Shown here piece by piece: positions 13,493 to 32,100 of a stretch of DNA of 64,000 nucleotides. The notes beneath the pieces are model-generated. The model was not told where the DNA came from and made no database searches. It saw nothing but the letters and a program-made list of their open reading frames with translations. The stretch covers positions 181,640 to 245,639 of the forward strand of contig FMBT01000355.1 of NCBI GenBank assembly GCA_900095095.1, written 5' to 3'. The translations under genes and the position numbers were made by a program. This DNA comes from Fragilariopsis cylindrus CCMP1102. Taxonomy: Eukaryota; Bacillariophyta; Bacillariophyceae; Bacillariales; Bacillariaceae. How positions within the stretch are numbered: the first letter of the stretch is position 1; each line of letters starts with the position of its first letter.

Positions 13493-14149
13493 CTAATTTG
13501 GTTACCATGTGCCTTACTAATTTATAAACTAAAAACATCAAAAATCAAGATTTTTAAAAGATGTACAGTATGAATTCCATTTGGACCTGGACTCTTCTCA
13601 AAATAAATTTTGCATCCTGCAAGCTTTGTTGTCAGTGGTACCTCAATTTACCAACATATTTTGAGGTGATGTTTTGTTTCCTTTTCTGTTCCAGCACTCG
13701 CGTCAGAAGTTTTCAAAGTGTGACGGTTGGAATGTAATTAATCGAACCTCGGTTGGTACTGGTCAGATTACTACATAGTGGATTCAAAAGAAAGCGCTTT
13801 TACTGTTAACAGTTAGGAAGAGGTGTGGTCTAATTCAATCCAGGGTGGAATCTTCAACAGAGGTGCGAATGAATACAGAGTCAAATTTCAAATCTTCACA
13901 AGATGTGCAATATAAGAGAGGAAAAATATGAATCGAATAATAGAGTAAGAGCTAGACAAATGGTAGCGTATAGTCTCTTATAGTTATACTATTAAGTATG
14001 GTAGTTGGTTTTATTATTAGAGTGTTAGAAAAGGACCCTTTGTCAATGGTTATTTGTGTGGTTGTTGTCGTTGTGACATGGTACAAGTATAAAATTATTT
14101 TTTATGTGAAACAAAAAGGGTGCTTTGAGAAATTATGTTTTCTTTTTTC

Positions 14150-14583
14150 TAATAAGTTGAATTTATTCAACTTGTTCGGAGCAAGTTGAATTTATTCAAC
14201 TTGTTCTAAAAACAAGTTGGGAAAATTCAACTTGTTCTAAAAACAAGTTGAATTAATTCAACTTGTTACTTAAATATATTCCATTTAATTTCTGTACCAG
14301 TGTTACAACAATCAATGTCCATTCCATTTTTTGCAATTAACTCATCCACCACTCCATTTTGCGATTAATATGGAAGCCCGAACCCTGAGAAAATTCAACT
14401 TGTTCTAAAAACCAGTTGAATTAAGAACAAGTTGAATTAATTCAACTTGTTACTTAAGTGAGCCATTCGTTACAAATATATTCCATTTAATTTCTGTACC
14501 ACTGTTACAATCAATGTCCATTCCATTTTTTGCAATTTACTCATCCACCACTTCATTTTACGATTAATTTGGAAGCCCGAACC
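14150..14583. repeat. AACTTGTT hairpin cluster with a duplicated ~110-bp module
   Basis: The word CAACTTGTT and its complement AACAAGTTG alternate at least seven times in 14150-14270 and again in 14392-14455, forming stacked hairpins. Each hairpin cluster is followed by a near-identical module of about 110 bp, at 14272-14384 and 14474-14583, running from AAATATATTCCATTTAATTT to GGAAGCCCGAACC. The whole cluster-plus-module unit is thus a direct repeat of about 200 bp. No coding potential. Confidence 0.75.
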
Positions 14584-14732
14584 TGCTGCAACTGTAACGC
14601 AAACTTCGAACCTTGAGCCTTAAACCAATGACTTATTATCTTTCAGGACATAGATATAAGTATATCAGTAACTTTATTTTAGGTCCTACAGATATATTTA
14701 TGATATGCATATGTACAATTCATCAAGATATC

Positions 14733-14880
14733 CACATAAAATTACGATTACAATTCTGAAATCCAACAACCATAAAATTACGATTACAGGTCCGAAATCC
14801 AACAGTCATAAATTACAATTACAGTTCCGAAATTCAACAATCATAAAATTACAGTAACAATTCCGAAATCGAACAATCAT
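14733..14880. repeat. Four ~37-bp tandem repeats
   Basis: Four imperfect copies of a unit like CATAAAATTACGATTACA followed by (A/G)TTCCGAAATCCAACAA lie head to tail and end about 70 bp before the ATG of the cyclase/PDE gene. They could be in its promoter or 5' UTR. Function unknown. Confidence 0.75.
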
Positions 14881-14947: not shown

Positions 14948-17900
14948 ATGAATCTTTCTGCTGATGGAAGCAATAACGGGAAAGCGGTCATCAATTATGC
15001 CGATATTCCTCTCGTCGGAATCCCTCTTGCTAGTGAACACAGTGTTTCTTCTGCTAATTCTATCCTGTCCGAAACTTCTGAGCGCGCAAGTACAGCCGGT
15101 GATTCAAGCATTAACGGGAAAACAGTACAGAACCTCCAACAATTGGAAATTGCTGAAAAAGAAGAGCGCCATGTTAATATCATTCGTGTTGTAATGATTA
15201 CCTTTATCCTCTTTTCTGCCACTACTGTATGTATTATAGTATACTTCTTTGCCACGGATTACGACAAGAAGCAGCTCGAATTGGAGGTAAGTGTACAAGA
15301 ACAGCTGGCAATTTAACGCAACGCCGAACGCGGAACACGTAGCAGTAGAATTCATTTCACTAACACTCTTACTGTTGTTCTTCTCATACCAATCGTGTCT
15401 TATTCTTAGTACGAATCATTTGTTGAAAACATTCAGCACGATATTGTGTGGGAAGTCCAGTACAATTTTGCCTTGCTTCAACAGCTATCTGCAGGTGTTA
15501 CGTCAGAAATCTTGGCGAGTAATCAAGTGGCTCCTAACATTACATTACCTCGATTCGAAGTCATGGGGGGATTTACTGATGGTTTGAGTGGGGTAATGAC
15601 CGCAATGTTTATTCCTTTACTTGCTGCATCTAAGCTCAAGGAATGGGAAGCATACTCTGTAGAAAATCAAGGATGGCTAGAAGAAAGTGCGAGATTGGCG
15701 ACAGATCACGGTAAACATTTACGTCCACTTGAAGGAACTTATCAGGATCACGAAACGGATGCAATCGATCTCATTGGAGTCGACGGTAATATTCGTGGAA
15801 AAATCGAACCCATTCCGAACAAGATTTGGACATGGAACGAAGGTAACAAAACTGAGCTAGAACCAGTATCCGACGATCAGCTTCTTGCTCCATTCTGGCA
15901 GAGTAGTCCTGCAAATGCAAACACTGTTAACTCGGATATGCTGTCCGATTATCGTGTCGCTAAGTTGTATAAGAACATGCGAGAAACAAACCAAACTGTG
16001 ATGTCGTCTGCAACTATGATAGGAGACCTTTTCGGTTGGATGTACAGTCCCGAAGAGGAAGGAAAAAAAGAAGAACCACATGCGTTCCTAATGGAACCAG
16101 TGTATGCTAATTTATCCAGTACCGAATCGGAACCAATCGGATTGATCATGGGCCTTACGTCTTACAGACATCTCTTCGAGAATATTCTTCCACCGAAAGC
16201 GGATGGTATCTATGTGGTCCTTACTGGATCAAGTGCCTGTACAGCAAACTTAACGTTCTTGTTAAATGGTCCTGAAGCTACATTTATTGGATTTCACGAC
16301 CTACATGAAGGGATGGAAGAATACGAAGCGATGATTCCTATGGAGCTATATAATAATACCTCAGAAGACCTTTGCACTCATGACCTTCATATCTACCCCT
16401 CTCCGGCTTTCGTAGAATCCCTTCACACCAGGAAACCATTGTAAGTTCTACAGTGTATCGGTCGTGATTTTGACGATTTTTCTTCTCTATTGTCTCAACT
16501 ATTTAATCTCTTCCCTTCCTTTGTCGCTTGCTTACATCCAGAATTTATACAAGTATTGTAGCATGCGCATTCGTTGTAACCACGATTTGCTTTTTGATCT
16601 ATGAACGTTTGGTCACAAAGAGAGAAAGTACAAAGACTGCAGCGCTTCAGGTCGTCGCATCTCTTTTTCCTTCTGGAATCCAAGATCAAGTACTCAAAGG
16701 TGTCCATGATGGAACCCATGGAACATCAAACCCAGGGGGTGTTATAGCAACTTTTTTTCCCCAAACCACTGTTCTTTTCGCTGACATTGCGGGCTTCACA
16801 GCATGGAGTAGCTCACGTGAGCCAGAGCAAGTCTTTCAACTGTTAGAGACGGTTTACGGAGCGATGGATCAGATTGCATTAAGGCGAGGGGTTTTTAAGG
16901 TTGAAACTGTAGGCGATTGTTACGTTGCAGTATGTGGTCTACCAGGTAAATTACAACGTTGGCACAACAATTATTATTAACTTTATCTTATTCGAGTATT
17001 CAAATAATTGTTGTCTTACCAAAAAGAATGAACTTGTTTTCGTTCTTGTCATTTCCAGAGCCGAGGGAGGATCATGCTGTAGCCATGACACGTTTTGCAC
17101 GAGACTGTCAACTAAGAATGGCATCTCTTAGCCAGCAACTTGAGGTAGCGCTTGGCCCTGATACCGCAGAACTTTCGTTTAGGTAAGATACGGCACTCGA
17201 AAAATGTCTCCTCCAACCATAACATATCCCAATTATTGTTTCCTCACTTTACATTTCTCTCTTATGCAATTGTACAGAATTGGTATGCACTCAGGACCAG
17301 TAACGGGTGGAGTTTTGCGTGGTCAGGTAAGATACGGCAATCGAAAAAGTCTCCTCCTAACATATTATAAACGCACCAAGCTCCACCCCAATCATTGTTT
17401 CCTCACCTTTCATTTTCCTCCCGTTGCGTGGTCAGAATGCTCGCTTTCAACTATTTGGGGATACAGTGAACCAAGCAAGTAGGATGGAAAGCACTGGTTT
17501 AAAGGATAGAATCCAAATGTCAGAAGCAACGGCTCAGAAGCTCATTGCTGCAGGAAAGGGAAAGTGGATTGAAAAGCGTTCAGAACAAGTCGATGTTAAA
17601 GGTAAAGGTTGGCAGGAAACTTACTTCTTCAAGAAAACCTTTGGTACCAACACCAGTACCTCTGGTGCTAGTACAGATGACAGTCACGCAAGGGCGAAGA
17701 AACCAGTAATAATGCCATTATTGGTGAACAAAAATCAACGGTTAGTCTCTTGGAATACTGAAGTGCTTGTCCGTCGTGTCAAGGCAATTCTAAGCGATCG
17801 CAATAGTCATTTGGATGATGACGGAGTCAAGCATGATGTTGAATTGAGCCCAGCGGTAGCCGACCAACTTCATGATTACGTCGAAGAGATTGCTTCCATG

Positions 17901-18901
17901 TATCGAGATAATCCTTTCCACAATTATGAGCATGCATCACATGTTACTCTTAGTATGGAAAAAATGTTATCCCGTGTCATGGAAACATCGAAAGATAAAC
18001 GATCAGTGGATAGATACCAGAACGATATCACGAGCGATCGACTCGCCCAATTTGCTGTGGTTTTCTCGGCTCTTATTCACGACGTTGACCACACGGGTGT
18101 TTCAAACGGCCAACTTGTGAAAGAAAAAGATCGAGTAGCAGTCCTGTATGATGACAAGTCTCCAGCTGAAAACAATTCTATTTATCTGGCCTGGAATACT
18201 CTTATGCAGCCCCAATACAAAGACCTCGTCGAATGTCTTTGCCAGACCGAGGAAGAAAAAGATCGCTTGAAAAAACTTGTGATAAATGCCGTTCTAGCTA
18301 CAGATTTATTTGATGGCGATCTCAGAAAAAGTAGAAACGAAAGATGGGACCACGTCTTCGGGTCCAAATCAAGTATTGCCGTCCTTAGTAGGGTAGGCGA
18401 GGATGGTTTCGAAGATGTCAACTCCCTCAAGGTAATGATTGTTCTGGAGCATTTGATCCAGGCAAGTGACGTTGCACATACAATGCAGCATTGGCACGTT
18501 TACGTCAAATGGGTAAGTTAGTCTACACTGAAAATTCACTTTGTGCCATCCTTCACCTACCATTTGGCTTACATCTTGCTCACACTTATTTATACCTTTC
18601 GATTCGAAAACAGAATGAACGATTGTTCCACGAAATGAACGAGGCATACAGTAGCGGCCGATTGGGTAAAGATCCACTTACTTTTTGGTACAGTGGAGAG
18701 CTTGGCTTCTTTGACCATTATGTGATTCCGCTTGCTAAGAAACTAAAGGAATGTAATGTGTTTGGTGTATCATGTGATGAATTCCTGGACTATGCAGAAG
18801 CCAACCGCTCAGAATGGAATATGAAGGGAGAGGAAATAGTCAAAGGTTACGCCGCTCGCTACTGCCAAAACAACACAAATACAACATTGATAGAAGAATG
18901 A
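14948..18901 (+). CDS. Receptor-type nucleotide cyclase fused to a class I cyclic-nucleotide phosphodiesterase
   Basis: Bifunctional membrane enzyme that would both make and destroy cGMP (or cAMP). Exons 14948-15286, 15410-16440, 16542-16945, 17059-17182, 17278-17326, 17436-18512 and 18614-18901 join in frame to 1,103 residues. Order: cytosolic N-terminus; TM1 about 78-101; a roughly 350-residue sensor region presumably outside the membrane; TM2 about 460-478; class III cyclase with metal-binding Asp in LFADIAGFTAW (about 538) and ETVGDCYVA (about 582), and FGDTVNQASRMES; then a PDE domain with HNYEH (about 811) and the metal signature HDVDHTGVSN (about 864). The Glu in KVETVGD favours GTP as substrate. 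The other specificity position, Cys in guanylate cyclases, appears to be Gln (ARFQLFGD), so the substrate is uncertain. Bifunctional cyclase/PDE genes respond to sex pheromone in the diatom Seminavis; the role here is inferred. Confidence 0.93.
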
Positions 18902-25900: not shown

Positions 25901-26150
25901 CGTAATTGTTGTTATTGTTTCCTGTTGCTTGTTTGTTTGCTTTGTTCCCTTGTTAGTTAGTTAGTTCCCTTGTTTGTTAGTTTTGTAAACGAAATAAAGA
26001 TGTTCCAGATAAAATTCCAACTCGTTAACACAATTGTAATGGGATTTTATATTTTATAATAAACGCTCCGGTCTCATACGGTACTCGTTTCTGAGCTCTT
26101 CTCGTTTCTAAGTGTGTACCAGTGTATCGATTATAAAGAAGGAGGATTGA

Positions 26151-26284
26151 TGTTCTACGCCTAGAACGGTGGTGTTTTACTGTCTGGTGTGTCTTTCCTG
26201 AGATAATAAAGAAAAGGATTTATATAATTATTATGTTCTACGCGCATAGAACGGTCGTGTTTTACTGTCTGGTGTGTCTTTCTT
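26151..26284. repeat. Direct repeat pair, ~50 bp
   Basis: Copies at 26151-26200 and 26234-26284 share TGTTCTACGC, TAGAACGGT and GTGTTTTACTGTCTGGTGTG with few changes. Each copy also contains the small inverted repeat GTTCTA(CGC..)TAGAAC. A following word, TTCCTGAGAT, is also repeated. Non-coding; purpose unknown. Confidence 0.7.
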
Positions 26285-29170: not shown

Positions 29171-32100
29171 TTATACTGTTACAATTGCATTATCACTGAT
29201 GCTGCTACTACTTGTAGCCACATTGACGAGAGTACCTTGATTGCTTCCTTCATGCGACAATTTTTCTCCGTTTCCATCAACTTTCTCATCTATTAATGCA
29301 TCAGTAGTTGTTGTGCCTTGCCTGAATTTCTGTTTACACATAATCAAAGCAACGAAAACAGTAATCAAGAGGCATGCAGTGGACAATAAAGCCTTGCCTG
29401 CAGTACTTATTGTTGACCCTAAATTCTTGCTCATATTCATGATTGCTGAGCTACTCGAAGAATCGTTATTTCGAAGGCTTGATGGTCCAGAGTTCGACAA
29501 GGCTGTAGTAGGAGCTGTTGGTGGAGGACTTATTTCTTCTTCCAAAGGCTCGAAAGGTTCGATAGGTTCGGTCATAGGTGGTATTTTTATTGGTACTACG
29601 CATGCGCCATCAGCGTTGCATTCTCCAATACAGCAGGATATAGATCCCATAAGACAAGTACCACCATCCTCCACGCAAAAGATTGCCTCAAATATTGGTT
29701 CGCTATAATTCATCCTTGCAACGCGTTCTGGATCTCTAACACCATCTGACCAAGAATCAAAAACATATGGTGGATAATTCTCTACTTTCAAATGCATATC
29801 TTGTTCTTTCCACGACCAGACTTGCTCAGGTGTTGTTATAGGTTCATCTTCGATGAGGATTTTCGTACCCGGGGCGTTACTTCTGACATCAACCATAACA
29901 AGTGTTGGTTGAATTTGACGACTAGTTTGTGATACAAGACCATTCTCATCTGTAGCATACAGAATAACCTCTAGGTAGCTGTTCAAGGAAGCATAAAAGT
30001 CCTCAGGTTCAGGAGCTGGATAAATATCAAAGTCATTACCAAGTGTTAGACCAAGAAAAGGATGATAATGCTCATCATGATGTTTGCGGACCTCCCATTC
30101 TAACTTAAACTCATTGAAAGCTGTTCCATTGGCATAGAACGCTTCTCCCCTTAGACGCAAGATTTGGCCGACATAGAATTGATCTCCTTCGATAGGAGAA
30201 AGAATCTTAACACTAGGTGGAGTACCTATCTGAATTGTTTTTGATTTTTCTTGAATTTGACTGAACGAATCAGTGACAATTAAAGTAACAGTGTATGCCC
30301 CTGGCTCTCTATACGTATGCCCGGGATTGATATCAGTAGATTTCCCCCCATCCCCAAAGAACCATTTAAAGTTAAGCTCGTCACCTTCAGGATCCTCCGT
30401 CAAACTTCCATCGAATAGGACTTCCTCGTCGACATCATAGTATTTATCTACGAAATCAAAGTTGACCGAAGGTGGCTCATTATGAATACCGGTATATCGA
30501 ATGCGTATCACTGTATCGTGATTGCCAAATTTGACGATATATAGAGCTTGTGTATCCTGAATAAAAAAGATCGAAGAAGAACAGTTGAGAATAATACTGA
30601 TACTGATAACAGTACAACACCATCGCCACTATGACATGACTACTGAACTTGGCCACGCACCTTATAGGGACCGAAGAACATGTCGACCATCTTAGCTTCG
30701 TTTTTACCATCTCCTGGATATGTAATTGAGTGGTAAAACTATAATACGCGTGGCAAAAGATGTGAGATTAGAAAGAAATACAGCTCGATTATGTTGCTAC
30801 CAAACAAAAATAAAAGTATAATCTAAGAGCAGGTTGTATTCTCACTGTAGAAATTGAATGAAAAGTATTACTGGAACTTACAGTTTCATTTTTGTATTTT
30901 GGAATAGGGGGAATGCATGTTCTACATGCATTCTCGTTATCTTCGATTAAAGTGTAAATATCGTAAAATACAAACTGTAGTATAAGTCCGAATGAAGAGG
31001 ACAAGACAAGATATTACTCGGTTAGATCCATATTCGAATTCAAACACGGTCAAAACGAAGTGGTAGCTGTACACAATATGGATTAATAAAATCGAGCACA
31101 CTGAACTTACATCGATAAAGAGAAATTTAAATTCTTCTGGCCAAAGTCCTTCCGGTACAAATGCCGATCCTGCAACACATCCATCTTTATTCTCTCTGTG
31201 TTGGTACCAGTAAAATGGTTCCTCGAATTCATCAGAAACAGGGCACTCGTCTGCAGAATGTCGAAGACATGGACCTTCGTAGGGTTTATGACCATAATTC
31301 GCACCTACATTACAAATACAGAAGCAGTTCCACGAGCAGCAATAGCACAAACAAGACGAAGAATAAGTACGAGCGAAAGTAGCAGCAGTTCAATGCGAAT
31401 AGACACAATAGCAGGAATCCAATAAGCAGAAAAACTAATGTAATATTCGCACCTTCATAGTCTGTTCCAGCGTAATTAATTTCTTCCCACGTTCTTCCCC
31501 CGACATCGGATATGGCTAATCTAGTCTTTTCCTTCTCGTTTGGATCCATACTTAGACGAAAGGGATTACGAAGACCAGTAGCGAAGATTTCGCTACAGAT
31601 AGCGTTATCCGATGCATCCAATGGGACTTTCCCCTTTGTATTACGACAGTGATAAGATTCATACCCACTAGCTGTTGTGTATGGATTGTCATCCGGTGAA
31701 CTTCCATCATCATTTAATCGGATCAAACTACCAAGAGCACTTTTACTATCTTGAGCATTTTCCGGCGTACCGCCATCGCCAGTCGCTACGTAAAGTTTAT
31801 CGTCGTTTCCAAAAGTCATCGCGCCACCATTATGAACGCTATCATGGAGTGGAGCTCCTCTCCAAATTTCCTCTCTTTCATCGTAGTCAAGCATCAATGT
31901 CTCTGGGTTCATTACAAATCGAGAGATAACATTCCACGGTCCATCTTCTGAGTTATCTGCCAAACAGTCATCCTTATGTTTGGTGTAATATAAATATACA
32001 TAACGATTATCTTCAAAGTTTGGATGGATCGCTATACTTTGAAGCCCTCTTTCAACGTTTGTACATATTTTATCATCCATATCAAGAATTTCGGTAGTAT

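Follow-up and report, generated by a model that had tools for sequence, protein, structure and literature searches.

An intron in a Fragilariopsis cylindrus cyclase/phosphodiesterase gene that is probably a local copy of its neighbour, flanked by an apparent 12-bp target duplication

The window analyzed here is a stretch of 64,000 nucleotides (nt) of Fragilariopsis cylindrus CCMP1102 DNA, part of contig C678 (FMBT01000355.1, positions 181,640 to 245,639); the assembly that we searched comprises 67.9 megabases (Mb) on 818 contigs. At positions 14948-18901 on the plus strand, the window carries a gene whose product contains, according to Pfam, a class III nucleotide cyclase domain (PF00211) and a phosphodiesterase (PDE) domain (PDEase_I, PF00233). 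In our hand-made model, this cyclase/PDE gene consists of seven exons (14948-15286, 15410-16440, 16542-16945, 17059-17182, 17278-17326, 17436-18512, and 18614-18901) encoding 1103 amino acids. The nearest named proteins are those of Pseudo-nitzschia pungens, of Nitzschia inconspicua, and of the gene model 'Psemu1', which we take to be Pseudo-nitzschia multiseries. Our subject is two neighboring introns of this gene, intron 1 (17183-17277, plus strand; 95 nt, GT-AG, phase 2), the putative donor, and intron 2 (17327-17435, plus strand; 109 nt, GT-AG, phase 0), the putative new intron, which are separated by an exon of 49 nt (17278-17326). Three further near-identical copies of the gene are present on small contigs (L002/C743, L003/C641, and L004/C21). 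They differ from the window chiefly by insertions and deletions (indels), some of them within exons, and probably represent haplotigs or unpolished duplicates. A search of viral contigs for the gene gave no confirmed match.

The original prediction held that introns 1 and 2 are copies of each other on either side of an unrelated exon, and the coordinates, lengths, and shared words that it gave were correct when checked against the sequence. Local alignment of the two introns yielded a score of 64, whereas 5000 dinucleotide shuffles of both introns gave no score above 32; after the splice-site ends were trimmed, the score was 52 versus a maximum of 31. Among the 15 possible pairs of the gene's six introns, the intron 1/2 pair scored 52 and the other 14 scored 13-18. 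We also compared, all against all, 92 introns predicted by our own Viterbi gene finder in 154 kilobases (kb), consisting of the window and nine 10-kb stretches, a set that includes errors. (Relative to the hand-made cyclase model, the gene finder placed 6/6 donors and 5/6 introns exactly, misplaced the acceptor of the last intron, and added a false intron at 15099-15239.) In this comparison the intron 1/2 pair reached an E value of 3e-10, and the other eight listed pairs had values of 0.02-0.05. The 49-nt exon lies outside the copied unit, as had been claimed.

The likeness between the introns falls into two blocks. The first (17327-17357, plus strand) aligns with the beginning of intron 1 (17183 onward), with differences at 2 of 31 sites in the C743 copy, while the second (17387-17420, plus strand), which contains the pyrimidine tract, aligns to intron 1 from 17228 with 85% identity over 34 nt. 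Between them, the middle of intron 2 (17358-17386, plus strand) is ~16 nt longer than its counterpart. Because of these extra nucleotides, a word that had been said to lie at the same place in both introns does so relative to the 3' end (50 and 49 nt) and does not relative to the 5' end (46 and 61). In the C743 copy, the two conserved blocks differ at 6/64 sites (Jukes-Cantor distance of ~0.10), whereas the contig copies show no substitutions among themselves in either intron, only small indels. Thus, the copying event probably predates the sequence differences between these contigs.

What the original prediction had not mentioned is that the similarity does not extend to the 3' end and that a direct repeat of 12 nt lies there instead. 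The homology to intron 1 ends just short of the terminal 12 nt of intron 2 (17424-17435, plus strand). This block, TTGCGTGGTCAG, is identical at 12/12 positions to the 12 exon nt directly before the 5' splice site of intron 2 (17315-17326, plus strand), matches the end of intron 1 at 5/12, and provides the AG of the 3' splice site. The repeat is likewise found in the three other contig copies, and the 12-mer occurs just twice in the window. In the hand-made model, predicted splicing that removes the insert together with one copy of the target restores the coding sequence in frame. The inserted unit of ~97 nt opens with the GTAAG of intron 1 and tracks intron 1 to about nt 80, apart from the ~16 extra nt mid-way. 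The gene's other five introns have flanking direct repeats of 0-4 nt. Because the exon 12-mer recurs at the end of the intron and the homology stops before this repeat, intron 2 appears to consist of a piece of intron 1, approximately its first 80 nt, whose insertion into the exon duplicated a 12-bp target. Furthermore, since intron 1 has no flanking repeat of this kind, AG only, intron 2 is probably the copy and intron 1 the donor.

To gauge how unusual such a repeat is, we counted repeats that lie exactly on both splice junctions. For 90 of the 92 predicted introns the length was 0-5 nt, and the two outliers were intron 2, with 12, and another intron, with 10; excluding intron 2 as the starting observation leaves 1/91 predicted introns with a long repeat. 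When donors and acceptors were swapped, none of 8372 pairs reached 10 nt, the longest repeat being 9. This background consists of predicted introns of mixed age, with old and new not separated. A raw scan of GT-AG pairs 60-220 nt apart found repeats of at least 10 nt in 4/34,573, and five control dinucleotide sets gave 2/41,488, 1/39,951, 0/30,186, 8/57,089, and 0/64,408. Two of the four matches are introns in real reading frames; of the remaining two, one simply links the starts of introns 1 and 2, and one is not surrounded by an open frame. In L059, a GT-AG pair with a flanking repeat was rejected as an intron since no open reading frame crosses it on that strand. In Drosophila, repeats of at least 5 bp have been reported to flank 25% of the introns gained and 26% of those conserved, and a background comparison has been advised (review, PMC3443670); in another report, each of 213 introns is described as having direct repeats at its borders or close to them (PMC11782384).

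The second repeat-flanked intron belongs to another gene of the window (31305-31452, minus strand; 148 nt) and has a 10-nt repeat, AGGTGCGAAT, across both splice junctions. The product of this gene reads NYAGTDYE up to the intron and GANYGHKPYEGPC after it. The homologous loci C311/C358 and C273/C158, each pair being apparently two copies, are uninterrupted at this position, and C139 and C532 gave continuous matches among the longer matches listed. The DNA searches turned up a single relative, a copy on C684 (97%) whose intronic repeat is changed to GTACGAAT, and no source for the insert.

All nine paralogous loci that we aligned (C90, C88, C260, C462, C411, C660, C459, C379, and C205) lack an intron at either position; the alignment left out the gene's own copies as well as C182 and C707, which look like copies of aligned loci. 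Among these nine, C660 is apparently a frame-shifted copy of C260, and C205 aligns poorly, with in-frame stops and a 7-residue insertion near the intron 2 position. In four of the loci (C260, C660, C411, and C459) there is an intron some ten residues downstream, at FGDT. An exact match to GTAAGATACGGCA on C411 is followed by neither intron 1 nor intron 2 sequence. Protein records cannot show introns. In 15 homologous proteins, chosen from 25 matches by excluding 3 that do not reach the region and 7 that are distant, we observed no gap within 12 residues of either intron position, as would be expected if both introns were removed exactly. A partial exception among the protein records is the JGI protein P0008. 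This protein, which is identical to Pseudo-nitzschia pungens record P0002 at 886/891 aligned positions, is open through both intron positions and after HDVDHT continues into VSD, a result compatible with read-through of a GTRAGT donor. P0008 apparently resembles genomic DNA that has no introns 1 and 2 and a later, unspliced-looking intron.

We surveyed the 154 kb for similar GT-starting segments no more than 3 kb apart, using a low-complexity filter that was revised so that the intron 1/2 pair was retained. Four pairs were obtained, and the intron 1/2 pair alone has both members as predicted introns. Controls with CT starts gave 0 pairs and controls with GA starts gave 5, one of which is the intron 1/2 pair on the opposite strand, indicating that local repeats are common. 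The other three pairs are short, imperfect tandem duplications that do not overlap predicted introns: window 26150-26270 (minus strand; pair 26265/26180), window 14703-14880 (14852/14781), and L058:5680-5890 (5720/5861), with spacings of 85, 71, and 141 nt, respectively. Just upstream of the cyclase gene, a cluster of palindromic AAGTTGAATTNATTCAACTTGTT repeats (window 14144-14590) lies within an imperfect tandem duplication of ~200 bp.

The reading that we favor, at a probability of about two in three, is that intron 2 is a new intron that arose by a local templated insertion copying intron 1 during repair of a staggered break. It starts from features observed in the sequence, namely the homology and its end point, the 12-nt repeat, the restored frame, and the absence from the aligned paralogues. 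A break with a 12-nt stagger would have occurred in the exon downstream of intron 1, and approximately the first 80 nt of intron 1 would have been copied into it in the same orientation; fill-in of the stagger would then have duplicated the target TTGCGTGGTCAG. The copied piece would contribute a pyrimidine tract along with a functional 5' splice site, GTAAG, and the right-hand copy of the target would contribute the AG acceptor, such that splicing would take out the insert plus one target copy and restore the coding sequence exactly. We infer the direction from intron 1 to intron 2, the DNA-repair route with templated synthesis, and the actual splicing of both introns. Intron gain by copying, as proposed in the original prediction, is the best explanation of an intron that is absent in 9/9 aligned paralogues and flanked by a 12-bp duplication of the target-site type, and of the three mechanisms named there, local duplication fits best; the introner and reverse-splicing routes are not favored.

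The main rival is RNA-mediated copying, in which the RNA of intron 1, after excision and loss of its 3' end, would have served as template for target-primed reverse transcription at a staggered nick. Such a route would account for a copy that begins exactly at nt 1 of the intron and is without roughly the last 15 nt of intron 1, and a staggered nick would likewise yield the 12-bp duplication. However, the right junction has no poly(A) tract, the left edge is ambiguous by 2 nt given that the AG before the GT is shared, and the target lies just 49 nt past the end of the donor, which suggests a local DNA event. We consider this route unlikely.

It is far less probable that both introns are copies of a dispersed introner or introner-like element that carries a 5' site and takes its 3' site from the target duplication, although intron 2 has the same architecture as the families that co-opt a 3' site in this way (PMC9860276). 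The duplication with splice-site co-option is seen at intron 2 and not at intron 1. DNA searches of the whole assembly with either intron, at E values up to 10, matched only the window and the other three copies of the gene on small contigs; since very common words are passed over in such searches and scoring is confined to the best candidates, diverged copies could escape. With the same limit, they revealed no group of similar introns in unrelated genes and no alternative source for the intron 2 insert. The 13-nt intron start, allowing one mismatch at most, was found at 59 places, a number that includes eight within the copies of the cyclase gene, compared to 73 for a reversed control. In addition, no terminal inverted repeat was seen by eye, and none of the other pairs listed for the 92 predicted introns had an E value below 0.02.

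If intron 1 had been reverse spliced (transposed) into the same transcript, with reverse transcription and recombination as later steps, intron sequence would lie in the same gene and the same orientation, as observed. Nevertheless, under this route the copy should be complete, 3' end included, and the target should not be duplicated. Both expectations are contradicted, by an intron end that is exonic rather than intronic and by the duplicated target, and we regard the route as highly improbable. Gene conversion between two old, unrelated introns is equally improbable, for although short tracts can be converted between neighbors, it leaves the 12-bp exon duplication unexplained, and neither intron occurs in the nine aligned paralogous loci.

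Several points weigh against a repair-mediated origin of intron 2. The direction of copying is read from the repeat at intron 2 only, and intron 1 may have had a flanking repeat that later decayed. A start of the copy precisely at the 5' splice site would follow equally well from an RNA intermediate, and to explain it the repair model must invoke selection for clean splicing. No empty allele was seen, both introns being present in each of the four contig copies, and P0008 may derive from partly spliced RNA. The raw GT-AG scan is not above every control and by itself is not striking. Finally, ~16 extra nt in intron 2 have no firm source.

The end of the intron 2 middle (17371-17388) is a weak inverted near-copy of exon 17305-17320. 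In 21 of 2000 shuffles a match was as good; this comparison is post hoc and one of 10 overlapping ones, and another part of the window contains a match with a better score. Snap-back synthesis as the origin of the middle is thus a lead only. The near-copy could pair with the end of the exon in RNA; for exon 5 together with intron 2, the predicted fold showed weak stability (z of -1.69, with 12/200 shuffles as good), and around intron 1 z was +1.81.

The origin of new spliceosomal introns is an open question because a gained intron rarely keeps both its source and its insertion mark in readable form. Here, the putative donor, the copy, the target duplication, and the splice-site assignment can all be read within about 250 bp, providing a rare record of what may be the birth of an intron and making local templated intron copying directly testable. 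Our literature search, which covered mostly titles and the openings of abstracts, found no report of such a diatom case; this is weak evidence of absence. Because 2/92 predicted introns in 154 kb carry a target duplication of 10-12 bp, and both are missing from the aligned paralogous loci, we tentatively raise the possibility that this diatom lineage gains introns noticeably often when breaks are repaired by copying sequence from nearby, introns among it; one intron might then seed another beside it by a DNA route.

Intron 2 can be compared with several known systems. Like intron transposition or reverse splicing, it involves a new intron homologous to an existing one; unlike that process, the 3' end is not copied and the target is duplicated (PMC3443670). 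As in tandem genomic duplication, a local sequence duplication makes a GT-AG intron, but the inserted piece is intronic and lies 49 nt away rather than being a tandem exon segment (PMC3443670); that process would duplicate an adjacent exon segment with AGGT at the junctions, and the 49-nt exon is not duplicated. As reported for introners of Chrysochromulina, the 5' splice site comes with the insert and the 3' site from the target duplication, yet there is one donor and one copy with no dispersed family found, and the duplication is 12 bp compared to the 3-9 bp cited (PMC9860276). The sequence-similar stwintrons of fungi are reported to lack a target duplication (PMC12403724), and a proposal for their origin involves intron RNA in the repair of breaks (PMC8469720). 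In Daphnia pulex, 33 direct repeats of 4-12 bp, made from the adjacent exon end, were found at new introns and attributed to staggered breaks (PMC4202315), and the repeat at intron 2, 12 nt from the adjacent exon end, is of the same kind. The Daphnia gains are backed by population data. The sources of the Daphnia inserts were rarely found (mitochondrial DNA, a ribosomal RNA gene, and three doubtful foreign hits; PMC4202315), whereas here the apparent source is the neighboring intron.
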